From contig NZ_FNFZ01000002.1 of NCBI RefSeq assembly GCF_900101015.1, forward strand, positions 89,221 to 153,220: DNA of 64,000 nucleotides, written 5' to 3'. Below are positions 26,938 through 61,534 of this stretch, one piece after another. The first letter of the stretch is position 1. Each line of letters opens with the position of its first letter. The stretch is from Sarcina sp. DSM 11001. Lineage in GTDB: Bacteria; Bacillota; Clostridia; Lachnospirales; Lachnospiraceae. The position numbers and the translations under genes were made by a program. The notes beneath the pieces were generated by a model. The model ran no database searches and was not told the DNA's origin. It saw only the letters and a list, made by a program, of their open reading frames with translations.

Positions 26938-27079
26938 CTTCACGTCACCACAGTTTTTGAAGCCTTTCATGGCGGCATCTCAGCATCCTGTTTCGTTTGC
27001 GCAATTCTTCACGTCACCACAGTTTTTTGAAGCCTTCCGTGACTGCGCCCCAGCTTCCCGTTCCGTTTGCATAGGCTTC
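26938..27079. repeat. ~70-bp duplication of the 3' end of the kinase-SBP gene
   Basis: CACGTCACCACAGTTTT with the following ~50 bp occurs at 26941 and again, diverged, at 27010. The right-hand copy is the coding end of the kinase gene; the left one lies beyond its stop codon. Confidence 0.85.
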
Positions 27080-30000
27080 CAGAGCGTTGTTGATGGCATT
27101 GATCCAGGAATCATAGTTTCCGTTTTTGTAGTACTGGATGACCGGGGGTCTTCCTTCCTCTTCTTCTTCGAGGAGTTTACGGAGGAAGAGGTTGTCGGGA
27201 GCGGACGCGCCCTTGTAGGGAATGAGAAAATCCATGTCTGACGCCATTGTCTGGCGGCCGTCGTCCGAGGTGACCAGCCACTGGAGAAACTGCAGGGCTG
27301 CCTCGATATCATCAGCAGAGGCATATTTGTTGACGCACCAGAAATAGGAGGTTGTACTGCACTGTCCATGATCTTCCTCTCCCGGGATTCCCATGTAGAG
27401 GGGAAGTACGTCAAGGTTATTTTGCATCGAATCTTTCAGCATCCTGTAATCCCAGGAGCCGTCCTGATGGAAAACGGCTTTTTGCTGTATGAATTCCTGC
27501 TGGGCGTCCTCCAGGGTTCTTGAGGTCGCCTGTTTGGGAGAAACACAGGAGTTGTTCAGGCAGAGGTCTATGTAGTCTTTGAAATAGCCCATGTAGTCGC
27601 CGTGCAGCGTCATGCCGGTGTTAAAGTCGTTATCCCTCAGCTCATAGTAGAGGGGCACGGCCGGCGCGTGTTCCGCATACCGGTAATAACCGTGGGCGGA
27701 GGGGCCGATGGAGGGAGAGGTAAAAGCGGAAAATCCGAGGGACTTTTTCCGCGAAGTGATGTCCTCTGTTATCCTTTTCAGGTCCCGGAAAGACTGGATG
27801 TCCGAGATGCTGTAACCGGCCTTTTCGAGCAGGTCCGTGTTGACAAGAAGGCCGTAGGACTCCACGATGCAGGCGAGGCCGTAAGTCCTGCCGTTTGTGC
27901 CGTGCAGGGCGTAGTCCTCACTCAACAGTTCTTTCGCGGCGGCGCAGTCCGTCAGGTCCAGACACTGTGAGCCATATTTCTCAAAATCCCTTGTTCCGCT
28001 GAGTATAAAGATCGTGGGATCGCTGCGGCTCCCCGTCAGGTTTTCGGCGAGAGTTGAAGTATATTTACCTGTTTTGGGAGATTCCACGGAAGTGTCTATC
28101 CCGCTTTCTCTGGCAAAACGAGCCGCCAGAATATCAAATTCTGCCCTTTCTGTATATTTTTTGTTCAGGATCCGGAGATGGCCCTCCGTGTTGTAGACAA
28201 TGGCCGGTTCGCTTTCGGACGATTCTTCCAGTTCGGATTCTTCCTGCACCGGCTCTTCCCGGGATGTGGGAACCTCTTTATAGATGAATACCACAGTGTT
28301 GTCCTGTGCGTTGTCGGAGAGAACAAGGGTCTGCCTGTCGTTATCCAGGGTATATCCTTCCAGCTCAGGGGCAGTGACCTCGATTTCTTCTCCCGCTTCA
28401 CCTGTCCCGGAATCATTATCCAGAACCGGACTGCCGTCTGAATCCATGTACATGACGAGATAGCTGACAGAAGAGGATGGATCAGCGGATTCATTATTGT
28501 CTGGATCATGCTGAGCGGAACCGCTGTCTGCATCATTTTGTCCGGCTCCGTTGTCTCCGGCGGCAATGGGGGTATGACCGCTTTTCCCGGAGGTGTCCTG
28601 CTGATTTCCGTTTCTGTTAAAAAGGAAAAAAACGGCCAGGAGGATCAGGATGCCCGCTGCCGCTCCGATAAGGGCAGGAACCGGAAATTTGTTACCGGGT
28701 GGGTGAACAGGTGTGCCCGGTATTTGTCTGCCGCCGGATGAGGATCCCCTGCTTTCAGACTGTGAAGTCATGGAGAAAGATCTGCTGCCGGAGGCGGAAG
28801 CATTTTCTCCATTGGAAATAGATATTGAAAAAGGGCTTCCTCCGCTGCTGGGGGCAGCTCCGTCCTGATAAGCCTGCAGGGCGCTGCTAAAGGCCGCGGC
28901 GCTCTGGAATCGGCGGTCGGGATCGGGGTCGCAGGCCATGCAGAGGATGGAGGCGAGGTTTCGGTCGGCACGGGAGGGAGGCGGGAGAGGTTCCCCGCGC
29001 AGACGGCGCATGTTCGCGCTGTGGATCTCCGCGTGAGCGGGCCGGCGGGCACCATAAACCGGGATCAGGGATCCGTTATTCGGAGATGCGGTGCTGCCGG
29101 GACCATAATCGGAGCTCTGGCCGCGGGAGACATTGCCGGTATCACAGAAGGGGGGAATGCCCTCGTTCATGAGCAGGTAGAGGACCATGCCCAGGGAGTA
29201 GATGTCGGCCGTGTGGTTATAGCGCTTTCCCAGATAGATCTCGGGGGCCATGTACTGGATGGTGCCTGCGCTGGTCATGGACATCCGTTCATGGATGGAG
29301 TCCATTGTCCTGGAGATCCCGAAATCCCCGAGCTTGTATCCCGCCCTTTCGCTGTAGTAGATATTGCTTGTTTTGATGTCGCGGTGCAGGATGCTGCATT
29401 TTTCACAGGAGTCCAGCGCCGAGCAGATATCCATGCCCATCCGCAGGATTTCTCCCAGTGCCATACCGCCTGACCATTTCAGGCGGACGTCCAGACTTTC
29501 CAGCAGCTCCATGCGGATCAGTATCGTGCGCTGCCCCTTTTTGCGGAGGACAGCATAGTCCTCGATGGCTACGATATGGGGGTCGCCCTTGAGCTTCATC
29601 ATCAGGTCGATCTCATTGCTGATGCTGCGGACAAAATCCTCGAGGGCATCTTCTCCGTCCTGCGGGGAGAAGCGGTCAGAGCGGTAACCGGTCTGATCAT
29701 AAGCCTGGCTGAGCCCGGAATCTCTGGTCCCGGGTACCTCTCTAAAGCCCTGCTCTGTAATGCCGGTACCGGATCTGTCCTCTGAACCTGAATAGCCATG
29801 CCCGGTGTTTAAGGGAGTTCCGCCGGATTCATCCAGGCGGCCGGAGGCTGTGTCATAGACTGTATGGCCGATGCGGACTGTCCGGTCTTCTTCTGCACTG
29901 CGGAGCAGGCCTGCACAGGAATCCTCTGCGTCTTCGTCTTCCATCTGGAGGACCTTGAGGGCGCAGCGGTAGCCGGTGCCCAGGTCATCCCGGAGGATCT

Positions 30001-30103
30001 CATAGACGGAACCGTAGGTGCCTTTTCCGAGCTTCCGGGTTATCCTCCACTCCGGCCAGACGGAGGAGAGCTGCTTCTGCATATAATCGAGTTCACTGTT
30101 CAT
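27014..30103 (-). CDS. transmembrane Ser/Thr kinase fused to an extracellular solute-binding domain
   Basis: A 1029-residue receptor kinase. The cytosolic kinase has GKGTYG (26-31), Lys50 in CALK, NEID (163-166), HRD (240-242), DFG (260-262) and APE (286-288), so it should be active. About 95 disordered residues sit between the Lys strand and helix C. One membrane helix spans 475-496. Outside lie a MucBP-like domain (about 545-610) and a domain of about 390 residues resembling family 1 ABC sugar-binding proteins (GLLVNTDLLEKAGY; QEFIQQKAVFHQDGSW). I infer ligand sensing that controls phosphorylation. It starts 15 bp after another kinase in the same operon. Confidence 0.85.
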   Translation of the reverse strand: MNSELDYMQKQLSSVWPEWRITRKLGKGTYGSVYEILRDDLGTGYRCALKVLQMEDEDAEDSCAGLLRSAEEDRTVRIGHTVYDTASGRLDESGGTPLNTGHGYSGSEDRSGTGITEQGFREVPGTRDSGLSQAYDQTGYRSDRFSPQDGEDALEDFVRSISNEIDLMMKLKGDPHIVAIEDYAVLRKKGQRTILIRMELLESLDVRLKWSGGMALGEILRMGMDICSALDSCEKCSILHRDIKTSNIYYSERAGYKLGDFGISRTMDSIHERMSMTSAGTIQYMAPEIYLGKRYNHTADIYSLGMVLYLLMNEGIPPFCDTGNVSRGQSSDYGPGSTASPNNGSLIPVYGARRPAHAEIHSANMRRLRGEPLPPPSRADRNLASILCMACDPDPDRRFQSAAAFSSALQAYQDGAAPSSGGSPFSISISNGENASASGSRSFSMTSQSESRGSSSGGRQIPGTPVHPPGNKFPVPALIGAAAGILILLAVFFLFNRNGNQQDTSGKSGHTPIAAGDNGAGQNDADSGSAQHDPDNNESADPSSSVSYLVMYMDSDGSPVLDNDSGTGEAGEEIEVTAPELEGYTLDNDRQTLVLSDNAQDNTVVFIYKEVPTSREEPVQEESELEESSESEPAIVYNTEGHLRILNKKYTERAEFDILAARFARESGIDTSVESPKTGKYTSTLAENLTGSRSDPTIFILSGTRDFEKYGSQCLDLTDCAAAKELLSEDYALHGTNGRTYGLACIVESYGLLVNTDLLEKAGYSISDIQSFRDLKRITEDITSRKKSLGFSAFTSPSIGPSAHGYYRYAEHAPAVPLYYELRDNDFNTGMTLHGDYMGYFKDYIDLCLNNSCVSPKQATSRTLEDAQQEFIQQKAVFHQDGSWDYRMLKDSMQNNLDVLPLYMGIPGEEDHGQCSTTSYFWCVNKYASADDIEAALQFLQWLVTSDDGRQTMASDMDFLIPYKGASAPDNLFLRKLLEEEEEGRPPVIQYYKNGNYDSWINAINNALEAYANGTGSWGAVTEGFKKLW

Positions 30104-30118: not shown

Positions 30119-32335
30119 TCATCTCCAGCCCCTGCTGCTTTCATAGGCCAGGATTTTTTCCAGATTACGCCGTTCGTATTCGTTCAGGACAGAATAATCA
30201 AAGGACGAGGGATCTGAGGAGCTGTCAGGTTTGTACCAGGTCCTGATTGTAAAGAAATCCTGAAGTCCCCTGTCAGAAAAAACATAGCCGTGTCTGGCAT
30301 AGATCTCACTGCGGATCAGGATGAGTTCTATCCGCGTCAGAGAGGAGAGCTGCTTGTCTGTAATGACGGCGGTGTCGGTGGGAAACAGGTATCTGCCGGT
30401 TGAGAGTTCATCGGGAGAGATTTTTTTGGCATAATCGCTCCTTGCATAACCCCAGACTCCCGGTTGTACCATGACATGGTACCAGGTATGTTCTTTGTGG
30501 TCGGAACCCTCTCCGCGTCCGGTTTCACCAAAGAAATACAGGGCTGTGTTCTCATCCGTGGAAATGACCAGATCGCTCTCGTGCTTTGGCTCACTGCGCA
30601 GGTTGATCTTGTTGGGGGCGATACCGCTGACATAGAAATCGATGGCGATCCTGTCGTCCGGCAGCGGAAGGGAAGCACTTTCCAGGCTTGAATCCTCAAA
30701 ATTGTTTCCCGTTTGGGAAGCTTCTGACTGAGATATTTCTGTCTGAGGATTATCTGTCTGAGGATTTTCTGCCTGAGAAATTTCTGTTTGAGGATTTTCT
30801 GCCTGAGAAATCTCTTCCTGAAGATTTTCTGTCTGGAGAGCTTCCGCCGGTTCCTCCTCGTATAGAAAGACAACGACGTTCTCAACGGGATTTTTCTGCA
30901 GGACGATAGTCTCTGTCTCCTGCTGTGCTCTGTATCCGGGAATATCTTTTGCAGGGAGTGTGATCTCTTCGCCGATATTACCTGAGGCGGTCTCATTGCT
31001 GCTCAGTGATTTCCCGACTGCACTGTCCTTGTAGATGACAGTATATCCAACAGATCCCTTCGGGATCCTGTCCTGCGCGGTGAAGATCCTGACAATGACC
31101 ACGACAATAAGAAGAGCCGCTGCGGCCAGAACGAGGTAAGGGGCTTTTGAAGGCTTTTCCGGAGGTTCAGGGGGCACTGGCTGGCGGCCGGCCTGACCAG
31201 TGTGTGCTGTGCTCTTTTTACCTGTCTTAAGATCACCGGATACCTCTTGCCCGTAAATGGGATCCGGATTGGAAATCAAATCCGGATCCATGCATTCAGA
31301 AAGTGCAATTTTAAATGCGGAAGCAGATCTGAACCGCCGGTCCGGATCAGGGGAACAGGCACTGCGGATCACTTCTGCCAGAAGCATGTCAGCGTTGGAA
31401 GGCGGCGGCAGGGGTTCGCCCCTGAGCCGTCTCATATTTGCGCTGTGGAGGGCGGCTCTGTCCATTGTCGCGCCGGGAGAGGTAAGCGTCCTGTCGTAGA
31501 AAGGCGGATAATTGTCATTGAGCAGCTCGTAGAGTGTCAGACCCAGGGAGTAGATGTCAGCAGTATTGTCATACTGCCTTCCGAAGTAGACCTCCGGTGC
31601 CATGTAACGCGGAGATCCGACTCCGCTCATGGACATTTTTTCCCGGACGGAAGCCATTGTCCGGGAGATTCCGAAGTCACCCAGTTTGAAGCCTGCCCTG
31701 TCGATATAAAAAATGTTGCCGGGCTTGATGTCTCTGTGAAGGATGTTTTTCTGGTGGCAGTATTCCAGAGCAGAGCAGATGTCCATACCCAGTCGGATCA
31801 CTTCAGAGCGGTCCCTGCACCTGCCGCGGCTGAGCATACTGGAAATGCTCTCGAGCTTTTCCATGCGGATCAGGATCGTGCGTTCGCCGTACTTTCTGAG
31901 GACAGCATAATCTTCGATAGAGACAATATGCGGAGCACCCTTAAGCCGGATCATCAGGTCGATTTCATTGCAGACGTCCCGCACAAAGTCCTCAAGTTCG
32001 CCTTCGCTGTGCCCTGACAGACCGGCGGCCGGATAGATCAAAGGTCTGTTTTCCTGCATGATCTTCACCGTGCCTGAGGGGCGGGACGTTTGAGACCGGG
32101 GACCCTGCAGGTGTCCGAGGCCTACGGTACGGGTAATGGATTCTGTCGGTTCCGGGTCGGAAATGTCCGCATGCATCTGCAGAACTTTGAGGGCGCACCG
32201 GTAGCCTGTGCCCAGATCATCCCGGAGGATCTCGTAGACGGCTCCATAGCTGCCCTTCCCGAGCCGCCTGGTGACCTTCCATTCCGGCCAGACGGAATTG
32301 AGCAGGGATTGAATATAGGTGAATTCGTCAAACAT
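30119..32335 (-). CDS. transmembrane Ser/Thr kinase with SH3 and YARHG outer domains
   Basis: A 738-residue receptor kinase and first gene of a two-kinase operon. Catalytic motifs are intact: GKGSYG (26-31), CALK Lys50, NEID, HRD (200-202), DFG (220-222) and APE (246-248). A membrane helix spans 399-418. Outside are a MucBP-like domain (about 428-493), a repeat linker of QTEISQAENP units (500-545), an SH3-like domain (about 565-640) and a YARHG domain with SEIYARHGYVF (676-686). SH3 and YARHG modules are typical of cell-wall-associated proteins, so peptidoglycan sensing is a reasonable inference. A good promoter lies 110 bp upstream. Confidence 0.85.
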   Translation of the reverse strand: MFDEFTYIQSLLNSVWPEWKVTRRLGKGSYGAVYEILRDDLGTGYRCALKVLQMHADISDPEPTESITRTVGLGHLQGPRSQTSRPSGTVKIMQENRPLIYPAAGLSGHSEGELEDFVRDVCNEIDLMIRLKGAPHIVSIEDYAVLRKYGERTILIRMEKLESISSMLSRGRCRDRSEVIRLGMDICSALEYCHQKNILHRDIKPGNIFYIDRAGFKLGDFGISRTMASVREKMSMSGVGSPRYMAPEVYFGRQYDNTADIYSLGLTLYELLNDNYPPFYDRTLTSPGATMDRAALHSANMRRLRGEPLPPPSNADMLLAEVIRSACSPDPDRRFRSASAFKIALSECMDPDLISNPDPIYGQEVSGDLKTGKKSTAHTGQAGRQPVPPEPPEKPSKAPYLVLAAAALLIVVVIVRIFTAQDRIPKGSVGYTVIYKDSAVGKSLSSNETASGNIGEEITLPAKDIPGYRAQQETETIVLQKNPVENVVVFLYEEEPAEALQTENLQEEISQAENPQTEISQAENPQTDNPQTEISQSEASQTGNNFEDSSLESASLPLPDDRIAIDFYVSGIAPNKINLRSEPKHESDLVISTDENTALYFFGETGRGEGSDHKEHTWYHVMVQPGVWGYARSDYAKKISPDELSTGRYLFPTDTAVITDKQLSSLTRIELILIRSEIYARHGYVFSDRGLQDFFTIRTWYKPDSSSDPSSFDYSVLNEYERRNLEKILAYESSRGWR

Positions 32336-32852: not shown

Positions 32853-33704
32853 ATGATCGAATCTTTTCAAAATCTGATTTCCGGGCACTGGCAGGAGATC
32901 CTCCTGGTGCTGATCCCAATTCTTCTGATCAGACTGGTCAGATATTATCTCCATAAAAGAAAAATGAATAAAAAGCTCCGGGAGGAGAAGGAGCTGGCGG
33001 CGCGGCTGATGCAGGATGAAGCCCTCAATGACGAGATCCTCAATCCTGCCAGGCGGGAAGGGGATGTCGAGGAGAAGAAATATCCCTATAAGGTCAGCTA
33101 TGCCGAAAACGGGAGAGCCCGTAGAAGAGGAAAGGGCAGGGTTTTACAGGAAACCGCAGAAACGGAGGAAGACGTTCTATTCAGCCGCGGAAAGACTTCC
33201 CGCGATGAAGACTTCCCCGGGAAAAACTACTCAGGGGGAAACTATTCTGAAAATCCCTCTCCTGAAAAAAACTTATATGGGAGGCCTTTTTATGGAAAAG
33301 CTTCTCTGGACGAACCCTTTCCTGAAGAGTCCGGCCTGGATGGTTCCGGCCGGGGAACGCAGGGCGGGAGACCTGATCAGGAGCATGCGGGTGTGTTCCT
33401 GAAAGTGGAGGAGCACAGCGGTTTTTCTGTAAAGTCCTACATGTACAGGCAGCAGGAGGTCATGAGGGTCGGAAACCGGTACGGGAAGACGGATATCATA
33501 GCCGGGGACACGGGCGGATGCACGCTCTACTTCGAGATTTTCTGCAGGGACGGTGTTTTCTGTGTACATTCATTCGGAAATGCCGGGGTGACGATCCAGA
33601 GAGGAAAGCAGCGGAAATCTCTCGGGGCGGCAGCCGTGGTGCTGCGGAGCGATGACCGCATCAAAGTAGAGGACCGGGTCTACGTCGTCAGTTTTGTGCG
33701 ATGA
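32853..33704 (+). CDS. membrane protein with degenerate FHA-like C-terminal domain, T7SS-linked
   Basis: A 283-residue protein. One membrane helix spans about 15-33, followed by a charged region with an Arg-rich stretch and a Gly/Tyr/Asn-rich linker (115-175). The C-terminal ~100 residues (MRVGNRYGKTDIIAG; then VTIQRGKQRK; VLRSDDRIKVEDRVYVV) have the strand pattern of an FHA-like fold but lack the usual SxxH/N motif. I see no match to EssA, EssB or EsaA. It lies 73 bp before essC and may be its membrane partner, which is an inference from context. The start at 32853 is favoured by AGAGGA upstream; the frame is open further back. Confidence 0.55.
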   Translation: MIESFQNLISGHWQEILLVLIPILLIRLVRYYLHKRKMNKKLREEKELAARLMQDEALNDEILNPARREGDVEEKKYPYKVSYAENGRARRRGKGRVLQETAETEEDVLFSRGKTSRDEDFPGKNYSGGNYSENPSPEKNLYGRPFYGKASLDEPFPEESGLDGSGRGTQGGRPDQEHAGVFLKVEEHSGFSVKSYMYRQQEVMRVGNRYGKTDIIAGDTGGCTLYFEIFCRDGVFCVHSFGNAGVTIQRGKQRKSLGAAAVVLRSDDRIKVEDRVYVVSFVR

Positions 33705-33777
33705 AGAATAGATGAAGAATAAAAGGGGAAACGGATCGATCAGGCAGAGAGCCTGGAAAAAGCAGAGAGGGGACCTT

Positions 33778-36700
33778 ATGAGTGTTGTTCTGATGATCTA
33801 CAGCCGGAGCGCATGCAGGGAGTTCGTGCTTCCCGCACTGCACAATGAAGAATACAGCATCAAAATTGACAGCGAGATCTTTGAGCTGTACCAGGATGTT
33901 TCGCTCCATCTGGAGGAAAACCGGGGAGAATGGTTTTTCCTCGCGGACGAACAGTATATTGTCTACGGGGCAGCTGGAAATGTCGGCGCGGGATCCGGCC
34001 GGAAGCATTCGGGCAGGGATGCCCATATCCGCCTGCTGAACGGCGCAAACTATACGCTGGATCTGGGGAGGGAGAGGCTGGCTGTCATCGTGCGATTCAA
34101 GGAGACCTCCTTTGTCAGCTACCGGAAATACGTGCCGGAAAATGTGGCGGAGATCACCATCGGCCGGGCGTCGGGCAACATGATCCGCTATTCCTACAGC
34201 TATGAGGGAAATCAGTATATCGGCCGCAATATGGCGGAGATCCGCTTTTCCAACGACGGCGCCCTCCTGGTCGACAACCAGAGCAAGAACGGGCTCTATG
34301 TCAACGACCGCCGGGTCAACGGCAGCCGGCTCCTCGCTTTCGGAGACCACATCCATATTTGGGGTCTGGACATGGTCTATCTGGGACAGGTCCTGGCGAT
34401 CCGCGAGGAAGAAGACCTGCAGGTGGATACTTCCTATTTGAAACTGTTTGTTCCTGAAAAGAAAGAAGAGACTGCCGCCATGGAATCCGGGACCGCAGAG
34501 CCCGGGAGTGCAGAATCCGGGACCGTGGAGACCGAACCCTACAGGAGGACGCTTTACCACAGAGCGCCCCGCAGTCTGGAGGCAATCGACAGGGAATCTG
34601 TGGAGATCGAGCAGCCTCCTGCCAGAAAAGAGATCCCTGATCCCAATCTCATGCTCACGCTGGGACCTTCCCTCACGATGGCGATCCCCATGGCCATGGG
34701 CAGCGGCCTCGCTATCTTCGGGACCAGGCTTTCGGGCGGTAACGCGAGCCTCTTTATGTATACCGGTATCATCACGGCAGTGGGGGCGGCGACGATCGGA
34801 GCTTTCTGGGCCCTGATGAACCTCAATTACAATCAGAAGAGGGCCAGGCAGGAGGAGACCCACAGGTTTGAGGCCTACAGTGAATACCTGATCCGGTCCT
34901 CAGACAAGATCAAACACAGTTATGTCAATAATGCGGAGGCGCTGCGCAGGATGTATCCGGCCGCGTCATTTTGTGTGACGCCTGAGATGGAGACGCAGAA
35001 CCTCTTGTGGGGCAGGAACAGCACCCACGCTGATTTCCTGGCCCACAGAGTCGGCATGGGGGATATCCCCTTCCAGGTTCAGATCAACGTGCCCAAAGAG
35101 CGCTTTACCCTGCTGGATGATTCCCTCAATGAAAAGCCGCGCATGATCCGCGACAGCTACCGGACGCTCCATGATGTCCCGATCTGCATCGACCTGCTGC
35201 AGGAGAATATCATCGGTATCGTCGGAGGTCCGCAGAAGATTGGAGCCTATGAGGTCTTTTACGATCTGGTCGCCCAGATCGCGGCGCAGAACAGCTACAC
35301 AGATGTAAAAATGGCCTTTCTTCTCTCAGGGGAGGGCGATCACGAGAGCCGCCGGAAAAAATGGGATTTTCTGCGCTGGCTGCCCCATACCTGGTCCCAG
35401 GACAGGAGGATGCGGTATTTTGCCTGCGGTCCCAGTGAGATCACGGACGTACTGTATTCACTTTCCAGGATCCTCAGGGACAGGAGCGAGCAGCAAAAGA
35501 GTGTTTCGGTGACCAATGAAAAACATATTTACAAGCCTCATTATGTCCTGTTCGCGGAGGACGGCGCCCTGCTTGAAGGGGAAATGATCAACACCTGGCT
35601 GACGGACAGGGATGCCGACCTGGGTGTCACGCTTGTCCTCCTGGCGGAGAACTATGAGGAACTCCCCAATACCTGCGAGTGCATCATCGGAAACGAGGAG
35701 AGCTTCCGGGGCCTGTACCGTGTCCGGGAAGGCACGCGTGAAAACATTGTCTTTGACAAGGTGGATCCGGCGATGCTGGGCAGCTTTGCCCGTCATCTCT
35801 CCAATCTGGAAGTCAGCGAGGTCGAGGTCGGCGGAGATATTCCGGCGGCGATCACCTTTTTTGAAATGTATGGCGTGACCAGGATGGATGAGCTGGGAGT
35901 CGTGGACAGGTGGCGCAAAAACAGGACCTATATCTCCATGCGCGCCCTGGTCGGCCATATGGCGGGCGGAGCTCCCTGCTATCTGGATGTCCATGAAAAA
36001 TACCACGGCCCGCACGGCCTGGTCGCCGGCACAACAGGTTCCGGCAAATCGGAGACCCTGCAGACCTATATTCTGTCCCTGGCCATTAATTTCAGCCCCG
36101 ACGATGTGGGCTTTTTCCTGATCGATTACAAGGGCGGCGGCATGGCGAACCTGTTTGAGGACCTGCCTCATGTGATGGGGACCATTTCCAACCTCTCAGG
36201 CAACCAGGTGACCAGGGCCATGGTCTCCATCAAGAGTGAGAACCGCCGCAGGCAGCGCCTGTTTAATGAGAGTGGTGTCAACAACATCAATGCCTATACA
36301 CAGCTGTACAAAAACGGAGAGGCCAGGATCCCCGTCCCTCACCTTTTCATCATCATTGATGAGTTCGCGGAGCTCAAGAGAGAACAGCCCGATTTCATGA
36401 AGGAGCTGATCAGCGTCGCCCAGGTCGGCCGAAGCCTCGGTGTGCACCTGATCCTGGCGACCCAGAAGCCGGCCGGGACTGTGGACGACAATATCTGGTC
36501 CAACTCCAAGTTCCGCCTCTGCCTGCGGGTCCAGGACAAGCAGGACAGTATGGATATGCTCCACAAGCCGGACGCGGCCTATCTGACCCAGGCCGGGCGC
36601 TGCTATCTGCAGGTCGGCAACGACGAGCTGTACGAACTGTTCCAGTCCGGCTGGAGCGGGGCAGTCTATGACGAAGAGGACGCCAATGCCCACAGGACAC

Positions 36701-38907: not shown

Positions 38908-39024
38908 ACTGTATTATTCCTAACCCGCATAAAGCGGAACAGCGCTTATCGGAATCTGGCCATTTTGCGCAAAAATTATCTGTAAGCGCCTGAACTGTTG
39001 TTTTTCAGGGAGAGACTCACGAAA

Positions 39025-39744
39025 ATGATCACCGTACTATCTTATCTGGAAAAATTGAACAATATTCCGGTCCTGCAGGAGGAATTTCACTCCCAGGCAG
39101 CCTTCCATTCCGAGGAGGACTGGAGGTATTTCCTGTACACAAAGCTGGAGGAGCTGCGCAAGGCCCTGAAGGCGGAGCCCGTGCTGGACATTCTCTGCTG
39201 GAATGTCTCAGGAAAGCAGGCTCTTGCGGAGCTCGAACAGACCAGGAAAAAATATATGGAGGCCTTCCTGCTGCTCATCGCGGACAGCAGCATCTCTCCC
39301 ATGGAATATCTGCGTCCTTCGATCCTGCCGACGGCCCTGCTGCTGAGCCCTTTTGACAGGCTCCAGTGCAGTCAGGTCCTGGGAGAGCTGATCAGCAGCT
39401 ACTGCAGCCAGTTCAAGAACAAGGAGGACGAGGACACCTTCCTGATCGAGACGAGGGAGGGGCGCCAGCGGGTTCCCCTGTCCCAGATCTCCTTTGTGGA
39501 GGCCAGGGACAAAAAGATCTACATCTGTACCCGCAGCGAGTCCTTCGGCTTCTATGAGACCATTGACCATATGTCGGAGCTTCTGCCCGCGCACTTCCTC
39601 AGGTGCCACAGGAGCTTTATCGTCAATATGGAAAAAGTAAAAAAACTCAATCTTTCAGAAGGAATGATCGAACTGGACAACGGAGAGACAGTCCCGCTGT
39701 CCAGAAGCTACAGAAAGGCGGTCAGGGCATATGGGAGTACTTGA
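39025..39744 (+). CDS. LytTR-domain regulator with an atypical N-terminal domain
   Basis: A 239-residue protein. Residues 140-235 form a LytTR DNA-binding domain (IETREGRQRVPLSQISFVEA, then LPAHFLRCHRSFIVNM and VPLSRSYRKAV). The N-terminal 130 residues resemble a receiver domain in length and pattern but lack the usual acidic pair and phosphoacceptor context. It probably does not take part in a classic phosphorelay. Lying directly behind essC, it is the best local candidate for the transcription factor of the locus. AGGGAGA precedes the ATG at 39025. The end overlaps the next gene by 14 bp. Confidence 0.75.
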   Translation: MITVLSYLEKLNNIPVLQEEFHSQAAFHSEEDWRYFLYTKLEELRKALKAEPVLDILCWNVSGKQALAELEQTRKKYMEAFLLLIADSSISPMEYLRPSILPTALLLSPFDRLQCSQVLGELISSYCSQFKNKEDEDTFLIETREGRQRVPLSQISFVEARDKKIYICTRSESFGFYETIDHMSELLPAHFLRCHRSFIVNMEKVKKLNLSEGMIELDNGETVPLSRSYRKAVRAYGST

Positions 39745-40540: not shown

Positions 40541-40785
40541 TCATGGCAGATGTTTATGTACCTTCTATCGGACGGCAGTATGATTTCAGCCTGGACGAGC
40601 AGGCGGTGATAGCGCAGCTGATCCCGGAGATCGCCGAGGTCATCTGCCAGAAGGAGAACTGCACTCTGGGCGGAGATCCTGAGGATCTGATGCTGTGCCT
40701 CCTGGATGACCGTCAGATCCTGGACAGCAGCAGGTCTCTGGGCAGTTACCACATTGGCAACGGCTCCAGCCTTATCCTGGTGTGA
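40537..40785 (+). CDS. esaB: YukD/EsaB-like ubiquitin-fold protein
   Basis: An 82-residue protein of the YukD/EsaB family: a small beta-grasp fold that accompanies T7SSb. It starts ADVYVPSIGRQYDFSL and ends GSYHIGNGSSLILV, the usual family ends. EsaB is a cytosolic component needed for secretion in staphylococci. The start overlaps the previous stop (ATGA). The following 250 bp to the next gene hold no clear gene. Confidence 0.85.
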   Translation: MIMADVYVPSIGRQYDFSLDEQAVIAQLIPEIAEVICQKENCTLGGDPEDLMLCLLDDRQILDSSRSLGSYHIGNGSSLILV

Positions 40786-41055
40786 ACAGGGCCGGGGTGA
40801 TCGACAGCGGGCGGCGGAACCGGTCATTTTATCAGGAATACCTGCATTTCGTCAGCTTCCGGCAGATCGGGGAAGCGTTCATGATATGGTAGCAGTGTCA
40901 GAAAGACAGATGCAGAAACAAGTGACAGATGCAGAAATTAGTGAAGTGAGAAGATTAACAAGAGGCAGAAGAGACTCCTGAAACCGGCGCGCAGGCACGT
41001 AAACGGCAGGACCGGGAAGGCAGTCTCATGAACAGATACAGAGAGGACAGTGAGG

Positions 41056-42286: not shown

Positions 42287-42404
42287 ACCGTATACATCCG
42301 CATACATTCTGGAAGGATAAATGTTCGGATCCAGTGTGACCGAAGCAAAGGATTTTCACAAAAGCGGCTCACAGCATAAAGGGACGCCGGGAAGGAGAAA
42401 CAAC

Positions 42405-51805: not shown

Positions 51806-51901
51806 GCGGATATTCCTGTACCCTGAAGGGGCAGGAATATCTGCATGTAAGATTCTTACACTAAGATCCTCAATTGTATGTCCGGAAGGAGAAATACAGC
51901 G

Positions 51902-53464
51902 ATGGGAAGAGAGTTTATAGTAAAGACAAAAGACATGACTACTGCAGGAAATGGTATCCGGGAGGCTTCCGGAGATCTGCAGAATGCCTGCTCTGGACTA
52001 AGCTCTGTTAAAAACTCCCTGTCTTTTCAGATCAGCTCCCGGACCAGGATCCAGAAAAGACTGGAAGATCAGATCGCCAGATTAGAAAAAGAGAGCAGGG
52101 CGGCGGGTAATATCAGTTCACAGCTGGATGCGATCCTGATGGCCTACATCGGTACAGAGAGCAGGCTGGCGGGTGCGGCGGGAGACAGGAGTGCTGCAGT
52201 ACCTCCCGAAAACGTGTATGAGCAGCTTCGCGAGATCCTGGACAAAATCGACCGCCAAAGCCCCGCTTCTTTTACGCTTCATCTGGTAAGAGAAATACTG
52301 AAAAAGCTTGCGGACCTGGCACGGCTCCACCCGAACAAAGAGCTGCGGCATCTGCTCGTGATGATGTCGACAGGTGCTTTGGTATTTGCGGATTTTTCCG
52401 CACATGGCGGCCGGGACGGGAAGAAGGGCACAGCAGAATCCGGAGAAGAGGAGCCTTCCTACCACACAGGGTGGGAATTCACCAAGAGCATGACGTCTTT
52501 CCTCGGCAAATATCTGAAAGAAGTAAAAGAAAAGAAAGGGGCGGGCAATATCCTGGGTCTGGGAGGCAAAGGACTTGGCTACGCGGAGGATGTGTACAAT
52601 TTCCTGAAAGGTGACAAAAAAGGCCTTTCCGGGGCATCAGATCTTTGCAGCCTCGGGGATTCCAGCTGTGAAGTCTGGAATGGTTTTTATAAAGTTATTG
52701 AGAATAAGTATAAGGATGCTTTCAAGAAGGCCGGTGACATTCCGACTCCATATGGGACCCGGATGGCCAATATCAGCGGCAGTGTCAGTGTGATCGGAGA
52801 TTTGTTCGGACTGGGCGGGGACCTTTTTGATGCCATGGATTCCGGCAAGAATCCTACAGGGGCAGATAAAAATGCGGCTTTTATCAAAAGTACGACTCAC
52901 GTTGTAGATATGGGTACGGATATTTATGACTGGGTGAGCAAGGCTGACACGAAAGGCATGTATACGCCTGCGGGCATTTACGGGACGATTGCCAGTTCTT
53001 ATATTGAGTCCGGGAGTGTTGCCTACAAGGATATCATGAAGATGAAGGCTGACGGACAGTGGACTATAGATGACACGGCTCAGACTATGCTTGATTCCAG
53101 TACGGCGGGTCTGTACAAGATGATCGATAAACTGTCTTTCGGCCTGATCTCGGAGAAGACGACGAATGTATCCGCTCAGCAAATTTCCGATGCCCTAAAG
53201 AACGGAGCGGTAAAGTGGGGGACAGATGCAGGTATGCGCGTTGTCAATGACCCGGCTTTGAAGCGCATATATGATAACGGAAATGAGTTCGTCAAGGGTT
53301 GTGTGACGGTCTATTCGATCGCAGAGACAGGGAAGGATTATATACGGCAGGGAGCTGAAAAAGCTGGGAAGGCAATTGTGAATACGGCAGAATCTGCGTG
53401 GGAACATGCAAAAACAGCCGGCGAAAAGATCGACAGCTTCATGCCCTGGAGATGGAGCTGGTAA
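51902..53464 (+). CDS. large T7SS substrate candidate with LXG-like helical N-terminus
   Basis: A 520-residue protein. Residues 1-95 form a helical module (FIVKTKDMTTAGNGIREAS; LDAILMAYIGTESRLAG) with the same plan as the protein at 44492. The middle has a Gly-rich turn (NILGLGGKGLGYAEDVYNFL) and hydrophobic glycine-rich helices (SVIGDLFGLGGDLFDAM). The C-terminus is helical and ends MPWRWSW. No toxin family is recognised. GGAAGGAG fixes the ATG at 51902. The next gene encodes a DUF4176 protein. Confidence 0.7.
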   Translation: MGREFIVKTKDMTTAGNGIREASGDLQNACSGLSSVKNSLSFQISSRTRIQKRLEDQIARLEKESRAAGNISSQLDAILMAYIGTESRLAGAAGDRSAAVPPENVYEQLREILDKIDRQSPASFTLHLVREILKKLADLARLHPNKELRHLLVMMSTGALVFADFSAHGGRDGKKGTAESGEEEPSYHTGWEFTKSMTSFLGKYLKEVKEKKGAGNILGLGGKGLGYAEDVYNFLKGDKKGLSGASDLCSLGDSSCEVWNGFYKVIENKYKDAFKKAGDIPTPYGTRMANISGSVSVIGDLFGLGGDLFDAMDSGKNPTGADKNAAFIKSTTHVVDMGTDIYDWVSKADTKGMYTPAGIYGTIASSYIESGSVAYKDIMKMKADGQWTIDDTAQTMLDSSTAGLYKMIDKLSFGLISEKTTNVSAQQISDALKNGAVKWGTDAGMRVVNDPALKRIYDNGNEFVKGCVTVYSIAETGKDYIRQGAEKAGKAIVNTAESAWEHAKTAGEKIDSFMPWRWSW

Positions 53465-53570: not shown

Positions 53571-53906
53571 ATGAAGTCACTTATTCCCGCGGGCAGTATA
53601 GTTTTGCTGAAAAATGCAGTGAAGAGGCTGATGGTGATCGGCGTTCTGCAGCAGAAACATTCAGAGACGGCAAATGGAATTCCGGCAGTATATGACTATA
53701 TAGGTGTTCCTTATCCGGAGGGTTATATCGGGGCGGACAGTGCCTTTTTATTTAACCACGAGGATATAAAGGATATCGTCTTTACAGGCTTTGAAGATGA
53801 GGAGCGTGAAGGCTTTCTGGAGATTCTCTCGACTGTCTATGACTCCGCGCGGGAAACTGCCGAAAAGGAAGCCGATGAAACGAAGGAAGCTGATGAAACC
53901 AAGTGA
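53571..53906 (+). CDS. DUF4176 protein (paralogue of 46137-46445)
   Basis: A 111-residue DUF4176 protein starting MKSLIPAGSIVLLKNAVKR with the conserved VPYPEGYIGADSAFLFN. The tail ends in a short acidic repeat (EADETK twice). AAAAGGAG precedes the ATG. The 107-bp gap before it carries a tandem AAAAAACGGATTGAG repeat. Confidence 0.87.
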   Translation: MKSLIPAGSIVLLKNAVKRLMVIGVLQQKHSETANGIPAVYDYIGVPYPEGYIGADSAFLFNHEDIKDIVFTGFEDEEREGFLEILSTVYDSARETAEKEADETKEADETK

Positions 53907-54258: not shown

Positions 54259-54558
54259 ATGGCAGCAACATTCAGAGTATCAACAGCACGGCTCATTCAG
54301 CAGGCACAGGAACTGCAGACACTCAACGAGAGATTCAAGGCTGAGGTCACTGCAATGACCGAGAAAGAGGAGGCACTTTCCTCTATGTGGGAGGGCGAAG
54401 CGAGAAATGCCTTCCACAACGCCTACGCGACAGACGCAGAAAAATTCGCGAATTTCTATAACGGAATCGTCCGCTTCATTCAGGCACTGAGTGATGTAGC
54501 TCAGAATTACCAGAAAGCAGAGGCACAGGCGGCAGCGATAGCAACGACCCGGGCATAA
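54259..54558 (+). CDS. WXG100 protein (paralogue of 42988-43287)
   Basis: A 99-residue WXG100 protein with WEG near residue 44. It is about 80 percent identical to the cassette A paralogue, including the whole stretch around EGEARNAFHNAYATDAEKF. AAAGGAAGGA precedes the start. It follows promoter site C. Confidence 0.93.
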   Translation: MAATFRVSTARLIQQAQELQTLNERFKAEVTAMTEKEEALSSMWEGEARNAFHNAYATDAEKFANFYNGIVRFIQALSDVAQNYQKAEAQAAAIATTRA

Positions 54559-54617
54559 GAATAATCCGGTCAAAAGCCTGAACGCAGATCATAAGAAAAA
54601 AATGTTACGGCCTGAGA

Positions 54618-54720
54618 CATCGGACAACAGAACAGGCTGCAGCAGAACAGATCGCGGCAGAACAGGTTACAGCAGAATTGTTCACAACAGAACAGACTAC
54701 AATAAACAGACCCCAGAAGA
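54618..54720 (+). repeat. degenerate ~18-bp tandem repeat between WXG100 genes
   Basis: Repeated CAGCAGAACAG and ACAACAGAACAG units fill the space between the two WXG100 genes of cassette B. Confidence 0.75.
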
Positions 54721-54772
54721 ATAAACTCAATAGAAAAGATCGGATCCGCAGAAGCGGAAGAAAGGAAAGGAC

Positions 54773-55087
54773 ATGGAAGGACAGATCAAAGTAACAGCGC
54801 AGGAGCTTCTCAATGCATCCAGCGATTTCGAGGCAAGGAACTCTTCAGTCAATGATATCACGGCACAGATGCTCAGCCTGGCAAGAAATCTCTCCAGCCA
54901 GTGGGAGGGCGAAGCCGCTACAGCATACATCAACAAATTCAACGAGCTCGAGGACGATATGCAGCTGATCAGCAAAAAGATCACCGAGCATGTCACAGAC
55001 CTGCAGGAAATGGCATCCATTTATGAGAATGCAGAGAAACTTGCACAGGAGAGCGGAAGCGGACTAAACGCACAGCTGATCAGCTGA
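54773..55087 (+). CDS. WXG100 protein (paralogue of 43528-43842)
   Basis: A 104-residue WXG100 protein with WEG near residue 44, about 80 percent identical to the cassette A paralogue. AAAGGAAAGG precedes the start. It is the last gene of cassette B before a strong hairpin. There is no cassette B counterpart of the WKG-type protein at 44006. Confidence 0.93.
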   Translation: MEGQIKVTAQELLNASSDFEARNSSVNDITAQMLSLARNLSSQWEGEAATAYINKFNELEDDMQLISKKITEHVTDLQEMASIYENAEKLAQESGSGLNAQLIS

Positions 55088-55794: not shown

Positions 55795-55830
55795 AGAGAG
55801 GAAAAGTGACCGGAATCACTTTTCCTCTCT
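55795..55830. terminator. bidirectional terminator between XRE and muramidase genes
   Basis: AGAGAGGAAAAGTGA (55795-55809) pairs perfectly with TCACTTTTCCTCTCT (55816-55830). A runs and T runs on either side allow termination in both directions. The stem includes the muramidase stop codon. Confidence 0.85.
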
Positions 55831-57831
55831 TTCTACGAACCAGACATTGAGGTCTGTCATCCCCTCCGGGATCCCCTCGACCCAGCCGGTGTTGCTGTAC
55901 TGCCAGAAGGTAAAGCGGTAAGGCGATTCCGGGATAATGCCGTAATCGGCATACCAGATCACAGCATTGTCCAGGCGGGACATATCCAGAATGTCTGTCT
56001 CAGTGGAACAGTTTGTGTAGATGGCGGGAGTAAAGCCCGCCTTTTCGATTTTTTTACAAAAAGCGACAGCGTTGTCTGTGAACTGCTCGCCGCTGATATA
56101 GTTGATGCGGGCGATGTATTCGGTCTGGATCTCCGGGTCAAAGACGACAGGAAGGGTGATTTCGACGCCGCTCTTTTTGATGATATCCAGGCAGAGCTGG
56201 GCTTCTTCCCGGGCTTCCGATTCGGAGACGGCCTGTGAAAAGACGTAGACACCTACATCAAGGCCGGCCTTTTTTGCCTGCCGCATATTTTTTACTGCGC
56301 GCGAGTCTGTAATGAGATCTCCGCTTTCAAACATACGGTGGCCGGCTCGGACAAAAACGAAATCATACCCGGCTTTTTTGACCTCGTCCCAGTCGATCTC
56401 TCCCTGAAATTCAGACACATCGATCCCCCGGCGGATCTTGTATTTTTTGTCCCCTTTGTAATAAAGATTCCACATCTCATCGTATTCCAGATAATCCCAG
56501 TTATAGTCATGCAGGGTCGTCTGCATCGGGAAATCATATCCGTGGAGTTCCTCCCAGTCCCGGACATATTCTTTCTGTTTTTTTGTCAGAGAAGCCTTGG
56601 AATCAGAATCCCCTTTGTCATTTTTGGAGTTTTTATTGTTGGCATTCTGCTCTTTATTTCCGCTGTCTTCGTCCCCTTTGTCCTCTTTGTTACCTTTGTC
56701 TTCTTTATTCTCCTTACCCTTTTCTTTATCATTTTTTCCGGAGGATTTTTCCGCGTCTGTTTTGTCCTCTTTATTATCGGATTTGCCATCGGACTTCTCA
56801 TCAGTTTTTTTATCTGCTTCGGGCTTTTTCCCGTCTTTTGCACTGTCTTTTTCAGGAGCTGCTTTATCGGAGGCCGTTTTCTCAGGGGCTGCTTTTTCAG
56901 TAGCTGCTTTCTCAGAGGCTGCTTTTTCAGAAGCTGCTTTAACAGTGCTGTCAGCGGAAGCGTCTTTGTTTTTCCCTGCGGCAGTTTTCCCGGTATTTTG
57001 ATCAGCGGCAGCCATTTCCATTCGGGTGCCAGCGGCAGCGGCGGAGGCATCTGCGCGTGTTGAGGCTGCAGCTGATTCCGGAGATGCTGCCCTGGCCGGG
57101 GAATCCGCCGTTGAGACCGGGTCTGCGGAGAGAGAATTGCTCTCTGCAGTGTTCTCTTCTTCCACAGCAGAGGATACAAATGAAAAAGAAGAAACAGGGG
57201 CCTCACCGGCTGGAGAGGCGGAAAGCGCAGGAACGGCAGAGGAGTCCTCTGCGCTGGAAAGAGCCTGAGATTCGGAGGGTTGAGAGATTTCAGCGGGTTC
57301 CGGGGACAGAATCTCCAGGACTGTGTCTACTCCGAGCCAGGACCGGAGACTTTCGGGAGAAGCGCTGTCCGACGAAGTACGGCGGGAAGAAGCACTGCCC
57401 GGCGAAGTATTACCCGGAGAAGTACTATCCGGGGAAGCACTATCCGGGGAAGCACTGCCTGGAGAAGCACTGTCTGCAGAAGAATTCAGCGTACTGCTGT
57501 GTCCGGCGGGATCCTGGATCCCGGGCTCGAAAACAGACCTGCTCCGGGACAGCACAAGGGAACTGCCTGCAAGGAACAGGAGGACCGCTAAAGCGGCGGA
57601 GAGTACCGGAATGAAAAATGAAGGGCCGTGGACGCCTTTTTTTTCTGGAGACGAAGAAACGGCTTTGCCTGATTTGCGGACGGCTTTGCCTGATATGCCC
57701 CCGCCGGCTTTGTTCTGGCCGGTTTTAATCCTGCCGATTGTTTTTTGGCCGGCTTTATTTATGGCAGTGTTATTCTGGCTGGTTTCCTCTTTATGATTTT
57801 GTTCAGAATTGATCTTTTTGAAAGAAGGCAT
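55816..57831 (-). CDS. membrane-anchored GH25 muramidase with long low-complexity stalk
   Basis: A 671-residue protein. A basic cytosolic tail of about 75 residues precedes a membrane helix (FFIPVLSAALAVLLFLAG). About 330 residues of stalk follow: Ser/Ala/Pro-rich with SADSASPGS-type repeats, then KAASEKAA repeats, then a Lys/Asp/Glu/Asn-rich block. The C-terminal ~210 residues form a GH25 domain starting RRGIDVSEFQGEIDW, with DFVFVRAG and PVVFDPEIQ supplying catalytic acids. It should cut peptidoglycan outside the cell. T7SS loci often need local wall opening, so a link is plausible but unproven. The ATG at 57831 (after AGGA) is preferred over an upstream TTG. Confidence 0.85.
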   Translation of the reverse strand: MPSFKKINSEQNHKEETSQNNTAINKAGQKTIGRIKTGQNKAGGGISGKAVRKSGKAVSSSPEKKGVHGPSFFIPVLSAALAVLLFLAGSSLVLSRSRSVFEPGIQDPAGHSSTLNSSADSASPGSASPDSASPDSTSPGNTSPGSASSRRTSSDSASPESLRSWLGVDTVLEILSPEPAEISQPSESQALSSAEDSSAVPALSASPAGEAPVSSFSFVSSAVEEENTAESNSLSADPVSTADSPARAASPESAAASTRADASAAAAGTRMEMAAADQNTGKTAAGKNKDASADSTVKAASEKAASEKAATEKAAPEKTASDKAAPEKDSAKDGKKPEADKKTDEKSDGKSDNKEDKTDAEKSSGKNDKEKGKENKEDKGNKEDKGDEDSGNKEQNANNKNSKNDKGDSDSKASLTKKQKEYVRDWEELHGYDFPMQTTLHDYNWDYLEYDEMWNLYYKGDKKYKIRRGIDVSEFQGEIDWDEVKKAGYDFVFVRAGHRMFESGDLITDSRAVKNMRQAKKAGLDVGVYVFSQAVSESEAREEAQLCLDIIKKSGVEITLPVVFDPEIQTEYIARINYISGEQFTDNAVAFCKKIEKAGFTPAIYTNCSTETDILDMSRLDNAVIWYADYGIIPESPYRFTFWQYSNTGWVEGIPEGMTDLNVWFVEREEK

Positions 57832-58150
57832 AGGGTATCCTGTCTGGTATGGCTGGCCGGGTGAAAGCAACGGAATATTATTATAACTGGTTTTTTACAC
57901 AGACTGCAAGCATAAGGGGAGGAAACAGCGAAACACTGAAACAGCAGGAAGCGAAACAGCAGGACCAGCAGGAAACAGCGGAACAGTGTAACGCGGAACA
58001 AAACGGAGCTGAATCAAACCAGAAACAAAAACCAAACCGCCGAACCACAGGAAGTCAGTGATTACGTTCCTTGGGACGGCGGCTGAAGACAGCGCATGCG
58101 CATGGAAATTTTTGCTGGTGTTTTCCCTGGAGTTATTTTTGGACAGTTTC
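57832..58150. other. intergenic gap with ~15-bp repeats
   Basis: No gene is seen. Positions 57920-58000 carry degenerate GAAACAGCAGGA units. The muramidase promoter should lie here on the minus strand but no clear boxes were found. Confidence 0.5.
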
Positions 58151-59929: not shown

Positions 59930-59974
59930 AAAACAGAGTCCGGAGATACCGGGCGTGAGAGGAGATCGGGGATA

Positions 59975-61534
59975 ATGAGTTCTGAGAAAAAGAGTTCGGA
60001 AAAAAAGCTTGCTCAGGAAAGGGAAAGACAGCGTCTGGAGGCGCTTCAGAATACGGAGAAGAAGTTTCTCAAGGGAATGTACGGAGACTTTTTCGGGGAG
60101 TCAGGATCCTCGCAGTCCGCAGGGAGCAGGATCGATGCGCTTGCGGAAAAGGAAAAAGAGGTTACTTCCGGGTTTTCGTCGCGGGCGGATGAGCTTCTGG
60201 GGAGGCAGAAAGAGATCTCCACACAGTTGGGAGAGCGTACAGATGCCCTGAAGCGTGCCAATGATGCGCTCAAAGAGGTGCAGTCTCTTTTGAACAATCC
60301 CCTTTACAATGGAATGCCGGATCTGACCGGGGAAGGGGCTGCCTGGTCCGGCGGCGGTAAGCCTGCCGGCGGGTTGGAAGGAGCTGGAGCGCAGGATTCC
60401 GGAGAGGGATCCTTCCCTAAAACAGGACTCTCTTCTGAAACGGGATACTCTCCTGCAGCAGGCCTTTCCTCCGAAGCAGCGGCGGATATACGGCCGGAAG
60501 CCATGGCTGTGCAGACATCATCGCAGCCGTCTCCTCAGGCGGAAGTAAAACCCGGGGAGCCGGAGACGGATCCCATGGAAGATCTGGATAAGCTGATCGG
60601 ACTTAAAAAGATCAAGCACGATGTGAAGGAACTCACGGACTTTGTCAAGATCCAGAAGCTCCGCAGGGACGGCGGCCTCAAATCCGTGCCGGTGTCGCTC
60701 CACCTTGTGTTTACCGGGAATCCCGGGACGGGCAAGACGACAGTAGCCCGCATACTGGCGCGGCTTTATAAGCAGATCGGAGTTCTGTCAAAGGGACAGC
60801 TTGTCGAGGTGGACCGCTCAGGCCTCGTGGCTGGCTATGTCGGGCAGACCGCCCTCAAGACCGCCAAAAAGATCGAGGAAGCCAAGGGCGGCGTCCTCTT
60901 TATCGATGAGGCGTATGCCCTTGCGAGGAAAGACGACACCTTCGGGCAGGAGGCGATCGATACGATCCTCAAGGCGATGGAAGACAGCAGAGAGGATTTT
61001 GTCGTGATCGTCGCCGGCTACACAAAGCCTATGGAGGATTTTATCAACAGCAATCCGGGCCTGAAATCCCGTTTTAATAAATACATTGAGTTTCCGGATT
61101 ATACCATCGATGAGCTGATGGGAATCTTTGAAATGAATTGTAAAAAGTACGATTATGAAGCTGAGGAGGATGTCCTGTCACAGATCCGGGCTATGATCGT
61201 ACAGCGGAAGCTCGGATCCCTCGAAAACTTTGCCAACGCCAGAGAGGTGCGCAATCTTTTTGAGGAGATCATTACAAACCAGGCGCGCAGAGTGGCCGCC
61301 ATGGAATCTCCCTCGCATGAGGATATGAAAAAGATCCTGATCGAAGACCTGGTGGAGACCGCCGAGGAGGACGCGGAGAAAACCGCCCGGAAGACCGCCG
61401 GGACAGAAACAGAAGGGAATGGACCGGAATCTGGAGAGGCTGAAGAGCCTGCAGATACGGAAGAGATCACGGAACCCGCTGAGATCACGGAACCTGTCCA
61501 GAAGGCAGAAACGGAAGAAAAGGCGGAAGCTTAA
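59975..61534 (+). CDS. EccA/CbxX-like AAA+ ATPase
   Basis: A 519-residue protein. The first 210 residues are coiled-coil and low-complexity (AQERERQRLEALQNTEKKFL; later Gly/Ser/Pro-rich). The AAA+ domain has Walker A GNPGTGKTT, Walker B LFIDEAYAL, a pore-loop region AGYVGQTA and a sensor/arginine-finger region NPGLKSRFNKYIEF. This is the CbxX/CfxQ group that includes EccA of actinobacterial ESX systems and SpoVK. It ends in an acidic Glu/Thr/Ala tail. EccA-like proteins are not standard in T7SSb, so its presence next to this locus is notable. AGAGGAG lies upstream. Confidence 0.85.
   Translation: MSSEKKSSEKKLAQERERQRLEALQNTEKKFLKGMYGDFFGESGSSQSAGSRIDALAEKEKEVTSGFSSRADELLGRQKEISTQLGERTDALKRANDALKEVQSLLNNPLYNGMPDLTGEGAAWSGGGKPAGGLEGAGAQDSGEGSFPKTGLSSETGYSPAAGLSSEAAADIRPEAMAVQTSSQPSPQAEVKPGEPETDPMEDLDKLIGLKKIKHDVKELTDFVKIQKLRRDGGLKSVPVSLHLVFTGNPGTGKTTVARILARLYKQIGVLSKGQLVEVDRSGLVAGYVGQTALKTAKKIEEAKGGVLFIDEAYALARKDDTFGQEAIDTILKAMEDSREDFVVIVAGYTKPMEDFINSNPGLKSRFNKYIEFPDYTIDELMGIFEMNCKKYDYEAEEDVLSQIRAMIVQRKLGSLENFANAREVRNLFEEIITNQARRVAAMESPSHEDMKKILIEDLVETAEEDAEKTARKTAGTETEGNGPESGEAEEPADTEEITEPAEITEPVQKAETEEKAEA

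Follow-up and report, generated by a model that had tools for sequence, protein, structure and literature searches.

The stretch analysed here, 64,000 nucleotides of the genome of Sarcina sp. DSM 11001 (the window; G000:C36:89,221-153,220; genome of 4.15 Mb, 98.6% complete, from a Lachnospiraceae-type genus), carries a type VII secretion system (T7SS), recognised by an EssC ATPase and seven WXG100 genes above cut-off, together with four genes for transmembrane (TM) Ser/Thr kinases. We consider it probable that this EssB-less, FHA-bearing T7SS is an island in a kinase-bearing variable site, with the kinases acting as general sensors and the FHA domains as phosphorylation-independent docking modules. 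The island would lie in a chromosomal site that reaches from a signal recognition particle (SRP) RNA gene to a GH25/AAA gene pair, and the site also holds members of an expanded Lachnospiraceae family of TM sensor kinases, found there and elsewhere without a T7SS. The kinases most likely signal outer ligands (via a sugar/peptide-binding protein, LRR or YARHG, and C-type lectin in sister genomes) to the cell generally. The FHA domains of EssC and of a second membrane protein, FHA-TM, most likely dock without phosphorylation, in the manner of YukB-YukC. Gene content, collinearity, absence in sister genomes, motif loss and kinase phylogeny form the observed basis of this assignment. The original prediction had proposed that outside signals set kinase activity and that kinase output controls secretion.

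The site was compared across nine congeners (G176, G201, G160, G163, G159, G157, G186, G204 and G158). Two of these, G176 (L223) and G201 (L225), were collinear with the window over single stretches, comprising a radical-SAM gene, the SRP RNA gene, a deaminase gene, two kinase genes, the GH25 and AAA+ genes and an SDR-like gene, and no T7SS genes were found between these site genes. The same T7SS-free, kinase-bearing order was present in G160 in two contig pieces (L230, L239), and G163 carried the GH25 gene with two kinases (L238), its EssC being on a different contig. G159, G157 and G186 showed neither kinase nor T7SS between the SRP RNA and GH25 genes. A search for WXG100 proteins (PF06013) yielded 12 matches in the window genome versus none in G176, G201, G160, G159 and G202 (82, 90, 75, 84 and 98% complete, respectively), and none of these five genomes contained an EssC above 450 bits. 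Kinases sharing the cytosolic design of the four window kinases (design kinases) numbered 10, 5 and 4 in the T7SS-free sisters G176, G201 and G160, two at this very site; the ten of G176 (L220-L224, L249) share a genome in which neither a full EssC nor a WXG100 match was found. Since the sisters keep the kinases, GH25 and AAA+ without T7SS and without WXG100, these genes can be assigned to the site itself, with the T7SS as its variable part. In L223 and L225 the GH25 gene and both kinases run in the same direction with gaps of 30-195 bp; the window's three minus-strand kinases and its GH25 gene keep the sister direction and the T7SS genes run oppositely. Judged by gene order, the T7SS may have split a GH25-kinase-kinase run.

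The features of the site and the locus are listed by position in the window:

25027..25249, minus strand: gene for the large SRP RNA, marking the left boundary of the site shared with congeners (Rfam RF01854, 108.9 bits; matched in L218, L223, L225, L230, L240, L248 and L254)
26287..26856, minus strand: deaminase-family gene, site resident (Pfam PF14437/PF00383; 89-97% identical proteins at the same position in L223, L225 and L240)
27014..30103, minus strand: TM Ser/Thr kinase 27014 with outer MucBP and solute-binding protein (Pkinase 111 bits, SBP_bac_8 84 bits, MucBP 32 bits)
30119..32335, minus strand: TM Ser/Thr kinase 30119 with outer MucBP, SH3-like (below cut-off) and YARHG modules (Pkinase 134 bits, YARHG 67.5 bits)
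32853..33704, plus strand: FHA-TM, with a single TM helix and a degenerate FHA domain at the C-terminus (family alignment A3, AlphaFold, Foldseek FHA matches); GTG 32721 is the listed start of the open reading frame (ORF), but a start at Met 32853 agrees better with the family
33712..38907, plus strand: EssC ATPase with tandem N-terminal FHA domains (TIGR03928)
38998..39744, plus strand: LytTR DNA-binding regulator (PF04397, 85 bits)
39731..40540, plus strand: protein of the T7SS locus with no assigned function, kept across the subclade (L218, L229 and L231, 39-45% identity)
40537..40785, plus strand: EsaB/YukD (PF08817, 36.2 bits; cut-off 27)
41050..41871, plus strand: protein without assigned function, only partly conserved in the subclade
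41981..44317, plus strand: five WXG100 genes at 41981, 42321, 42988, 43528 and 44006 (PF06013, above cut-off)
44477..46051, plus strand: LXG-like candidate substrate, 524 aa (by position; 39% identical protein in L229; no Pfam LXG match)
46128..46445, plus strand: DUF4176 protein (PF13780, 79 bits)
46666..48912, plus strand: TM Ser/Thr kinase 46648 with outer LRR (Pkinase 126 bits, LRR_4 84 bits; ORF listed from TTG 46648)
49006..51303, minus strand: TM Ser/Thr kinase 49006 with two outer MucBP and LRR (Pkinase 123 bits, LRR_4 89 bits, MucBP 44 bits)
51878..53464, plus strand: LXG-like candidate substrate of 528 aa (in L073, a homologue of the gene adjoins DUF4176)
53571..53906, plus strand: DUF4176 protein (PF13780, 88 bits)
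54259..55087, plus strand: two WXG100 genes (DNA 76-78% identical to the WXG100 genes at 42984 and 43514)
55816..57870, minus strand: one-TM GH25 lysozyme-like protein, site resident (PF01183, 99 bits; kinases directly next to it in T7SS-free sisters)
59960..61534, plus strand: SpoVK/EccA-like AAA+, site resident (part used as query, ORF listed from 59543; orthologue beside GH25 in L223, L225, L238, L239, L240, L244, L248 and L254)

The predicted EsaB, LytTR and DUF4176 genes were thus recovered, the last of them twice, while six WXG100 proteins became seven, five at 41,981-44,317 and two at 54,259-55,087. Kinases had been described as flanking the T7SS genes, which applies to 27014 and 30119, whereas 46648 and 49006 sit between two T7SS gene blocks. 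The AAA+ protein, assigned by the original prediction to the T7SS set, is indeed SpoVK/EccA-like (SpoVK 296 bits, EccA 222 bits) but stays under both cut-offs; with its score under the EccA cut-off and its place beside GH25 in T7SS-free sisters, it was rejected as an EccA member and counts among the site genes instead of the T7SS genes. Between GH25 and AAA+ (58151-59785) the window encodes an AAA-ATPase-like protein whose C-terminus is of the PD-(D/E)XK type; L223 and L225 did not show this protein at their sites. A base-composition sign of an island was rejected as well, the GC content ranging from 0.47 to 0.59 without a sharp step across the window. The closest named EssC, 80% identical in the best segment, came from RUG710, a metagenome-assembled genome from the rumen.

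The FHA domains were examined with regard to their phosphothreonine contacts. EssC scored 1040 bits against TIGR03928 (cut-off 778), and in an AlphaFold model it starts with tandem FHA domains whose best Foldseek matches (9qks, 5fwh, 1wv3) are all T7SS entries, as expected for the proposed FHA-bearing EssC. The second FHA-like membrane protein was borne out by its fold despite the lack of a Pfam FHA match, which 16/22 members of the FHA-TM family do give: the predicted structure has a single long helix at the N-terminus and ends in an FHA fold (FHA pLDDT mostly 77-97), and the best of 37 PDB matches obtained with Foldseek at E up to 0.001 were all FHA domains. Both proteins have worn motifs. 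In an alignment of EssC FHA domains (127 rows, 119 EssB-less and 8 EssB-bearing, with some loci present twice, e.g. as L135 and L229), the eight motif sites read G,R,G,R,M,S,N,G in the window and in G163, G204 and G158, so that Ser is replaced by Gly and His by Met at the contacts in 4/4 subclade species seen and the conserved phosphothreonine motif of T7SSe is missing. Across the 127 rows, Ser was kept in 90 and His in 97; the full R/K-S/T-N set occurred in 50/119 EssB-less and 0/8 EssB-bearing rows. The FHA-TM family likewise includes full-motif members (e.g. L150, L185), the window FHA-TM being degenerate. Only one FHA protein encoded by the genome is clearly canonical, a DUF6382+FHA protein with an intact motif like TsfJ/TseJ, and its gene lies away from both EssC loci (G000:C37:30,466; L232), and no such TseJ-type protein, as known from T7SSe, was present at the window locus.

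Other partners were absent, too. EssB/YukC, the T7SSb component, gave no PF10140 match in the window genome, while the control genome of B. subtilis was matched, and a cryptic EssB was rejected on this negative result; PF10140 matches of 18-23 bits in five family genomes (G002, G015, G082, G096, G147) are below the cut-off and were not scored as EssB. A local PP2C hidden Markov model (HMM) detected no PP2C in the window, hence no counterpart of the T7SSe phosphatase TseF, and the single PP2C of the genome (PF13672) lies on C55 beside PknB. No VWA-FHA gene was found at the window locus by local HMM scan. The genome holds a second EssC locus on contig C54 (G000:C54:115,000-132,000; L024, L025) with VWA-FHA, FHA-TM, EssC, DUF4176, WXG100 and two LXG-like genes. 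No design kinase was found within 19.9 kb on either side of this EssC, and the nearest kinase, ~23 kb off, was of another type.

The common cytosolic design of the four window kinases was confirmed: their kinase domains scored 111-134 bits in Pfam, far above cut-off, with 44-49% identity to the first, and a simple hydropathy scan predicted one TM segment in each. Lys, HRD, DFG and APE were kept in 4/4 (alignment read by eye), corresponding to the TM kinase with conserved active site of T7SSe. The outer modules do vary, but LRR was found twice and MucBP three times, and they are therefore not four wholly different ones as had been proposed. Among 12 PF00069 matches in the window genome, six were of the window design (at least 349 bits against A1), namely the four in the window, one on C33 with an outer DUF6273 and one on C32, in which an outer LRR and a broken catalytic motif were both recognised by eye. 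A tree of 83 kinase domains led us to reject the idea that the window kinases are local duplicates at the T7SS, as they do not form one clade (25 log units worse when forced together, p-AU 0.028). Kinase 27014 grouped with site kinases of G176, G201 and G160 (96/88), 46648 with kinases located elsewhere in G176 and G201 (100/98) and 30119 with kinases of G163 and G204, while 49006 stood alone. The outer modules (solute-binding, C-type lectin, YARHG, LRR; window 27014-32335, L218, L223, L225, L228, L230) do not follow this tree: relatives of 27014 carry C-type lectin domains and those of 30119 solute-binding domains, and the solute-binding part of 27014 shares 49% identity over 544 aa with its G204 counterpart. 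This discordance points to outer modules having been swapped between neighbouring kinase genes.

To place the locus in a wider context, we surveyed 149 family genomes besides that of the window (EssC at least 450 bits; design kinases above 165 bits, the next match being 127 bits). EssC was present in 38 genomes and design kinases in 23 (33 kinases), with both in 14 (Fisher p = 9e-5); among 60 other genomes of the genus, the respective numbers were 11, 19 and 8 (p = 0.0026). A T7SS marker lay within 10 kb of 14/33 family design kinases (17/33 with three kinases resting only on a broadened FHA model) and of 0/14 other kinases, mostly PknB, from 13 control stretches. For the remaining 19 no marker was found within this distance; taken with the kinases of the T7SS-free sisters, the outcome that the original prediction had named as refuting, kinases present apart from T7SS genes, is largely seen. 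A PP2C gene beside a kinase was rejected as a T7SS sign because such pairs are common in general (within 4 kb of 21/33 design kinases, and also at housekeeping PknB).

YukC/EssB above cut-off was confined to 7/150 genomes (8 places, on the EssC contig in 7/8 matches, with G060 as the exception), and 0/7 of these had a design kinase. Stretches with EssB-less EssC contained a kinase in 16/28 cases, a figure biased upward by G099, G107, G102, G088, G142 and G002, whose frames were placed with the kinase position known, PP2C in 10/28 and a non-EssC FHA protein in 20/28, versus 0/8 for each in EssB-bearing stretches; the local HMMs may also favour EssB-less loci, the source from which they were made. 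The 28 were fetched from 36 EssB-less EssC loci (at least 450 bits, 31 family genomes), omitting G070:C17, G129:C52, G076, G143, G029, G095 twice and G092. Leaving out design kinases, 8/28 retained a kinase (L065, L066, L069, L073, L074, L079, L080, L081). Directly upstream of EssC in G088 (L075:10210-15165), a 1651-aa protein with a WXG/LXG-like start followed by Rhs-like sequence (by eye) represents a candidate T7SS substrate. Named relatives, the best 80 of 568 picked by similarity to the window EssC and not by kinases, usually showed the order kinase, FHA-TM, EssC, LytTR, an unassigned gene, EsaB, about five WXG100, VWA-FHA and PP2C, with LytTR directly after EssC in 58/70 relatives with room. 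The 45 relatives whose EssC had 8 kb or more of sequence to either side had EsaB in 45, FHA-TM in 35, a kinase in 30 (none in 15), PP2C in 22 and VWA-FHA in 16, and 43/45 had a kinase, PP2C or extra FHA.

The original prediction knew of no described system of this kind. PMC11217815 (Garrett, Higginson and Palmer, 2024), however, describes the variants T7SSc-T7SSj, whose loci often contain kinases, PPM phosphatases and FHA proteins; it proposes threonine-phosphorylation control of T7SS with a T6SS parallel, reports an intact phosphothreonine motif in some EssC and likens TscD to EssB. Within the literature searched, the names T7SSc, d, e, i and j occurred in this paper alone, and searches combining T7SS, phosphatase and FHA, or kinase, Clostridia and FHA, gave it plus reviews or T7SSb papers; its main text mentions neither Lachnospiraceae nor LytTR nor DUF4176. 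These variants share with the window EssB-less EssC, EsaB, WXG100, membrane kinases with outer domains and FHA on EssC, and with relatives of this locus PP2C and separate FHA genes. The window differs by LytTR, FHA-TM, several WXG100, DUF4176 and four kinases and by the absence of PP2C, TseI-like and DUF6382-FHA genes, so that it does not exactly match any set described in the main text. T7SSi resembles it in two features, the ones compared, an FHA-bearing EssC with a poor phosphothreonine motif and a LytR-like regulator, the latter (TsiN) being unique to T7SSi according to the text. In T7SSb (B. subtilis Yuk, S. aureus Ess), EssC likewise carries a pair of FHA domains without phosphothreonine contacts, and EsaB, WXG100, LXG-like and DUF4176 genes are shared as well, but here no EssB was found and active-looking kinases are nearby. 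In G. thermodenitrificans and S. aureus, the FHA domains of EssC lack the motif (PMC4925161), and the YukB FHA binds the YukC pseudokinase without need of phosphorylation (PMC9600267). The TM kinase, PP2C and FHA gene trio of the T6SS PpkA/PppA/Fha pathway (PMC3953482) recurs in relatives of the window locus, whereas the window locus has no PP2C and degenerate FHA. Like PknB/PrkC-type enzymes, the window kinases are Hanks-type with one TM and an outer sensor domain; unlike them, design kinases have an insert before the C-helix region of the kinase core and, instead of PASTA, MucBP, LRR, SBP, YARHG or C-type lectin outside.

Several observations weigh against a T7SS island among general sensor kinases. 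Design kinases lay within 15 kb of EssC in 10/33 cases in the family (0.32 expected) and in 12/67 in the genus (0.6 expected), the Poisson expectation assuming uniform placement. Four design kinases surround one EssC in G190 (L212, G190:C45), which form their own clade and were thus gathered independently, and three are gathered at the EssC of L171. G204 has kinase and T7SS at the same place as the window. Furthermore, a degenerate FHA domain may still bind a phosphosite, the sisters G176, G201 and G160 are incomplete, and the T7SS may have been either acquired there or lost. A rival reading is kinase-gated secretion, in which outer signals would set kinase activity and FHA-read phosphorylation would assemble or fire the T7SS as in PpkA/PppA/Fha. 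The kinase, PP2C and extra FHA genes at EssB-less loci and in named relatives, the common retention of Ser and His in EssC and the published proposal for T7SSc-j all speak for it. The co-occurrence expected by the original prediction was seen in part, as enrichment near EssC, but most family design kinases had no T7SS marker within 10 kb. The reader FHA domains are degenerate here, PP2C and VWA-FHA genes are missing, kinase lineages persist in T7SS-free genomes, and two of four subclade EssC loci (L135/L229 and L231) have no kinase in 18-20 kb. Because the phospho-reading parts are worn down and the kinases live without T7SS, gating is poorly supported at the window locus; we regard it as doubtful, and control of this T7SS by the window kinases as possible but tenuous. 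The kinase-T7SS link holds as a class-level idea, already published.

A variation would keep both elements: the FHA-TM/EssC/LytTR lineage of Lachnospiraceae would be a separate T7SS subtype that is ordinarily driven by a circuit of kinase, PP2C and VWA-FHA and whose window branch lost the circuit, with shuffled site kinases docking like the EssB pseudokinase on phospho-blind FHA domains. We think this improbable. That the kinases replace EssB altogether, their cytosolic domain docking on the FHA of EssC or FHA-TM like the EssB pseudokinase and the outer module forming an envelope part, appears very improbable. In its favour, the genome has no EssB match, the topology is the same, degenerate FHA suits phosphorylation-independent docking and TscD was likened to EssB (PMC11217815); against it, no kinase stands beside EssC in L135/L229, L231 or the second EssC locus, and kinases abound without EssC. 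The slimmest chance falls to a pure genomic hotspot, where one set of variable sites would take up both T7SS islands and kinase arrays without any functional tie between them. The site is indeed empty, kinase-bearing or kinase- and T7SS-bearing across congeners, and many design kinases lack a nearby T7SS marker; the enrichment is nevertheless seen repeatedly, across many lineages and sites and together with PP2C and FHA partners. An EssB-less, FHA-bearing T7SS island beside general sensor kinases thus remains our preferred explanation.

The site comparison warns that a kinase adjoining a secretion locus need not belong to that locus. A kinase family with outer sensor modules swapped among related genes would be a receptor-like arrangement that deserves study in bacteria for its own sake. 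If the class-level link is true, it would provide a Gram-positive T7SS counterpart to the post-translational control of T6SS, testable in non-pathogenic relatives that are in culture.

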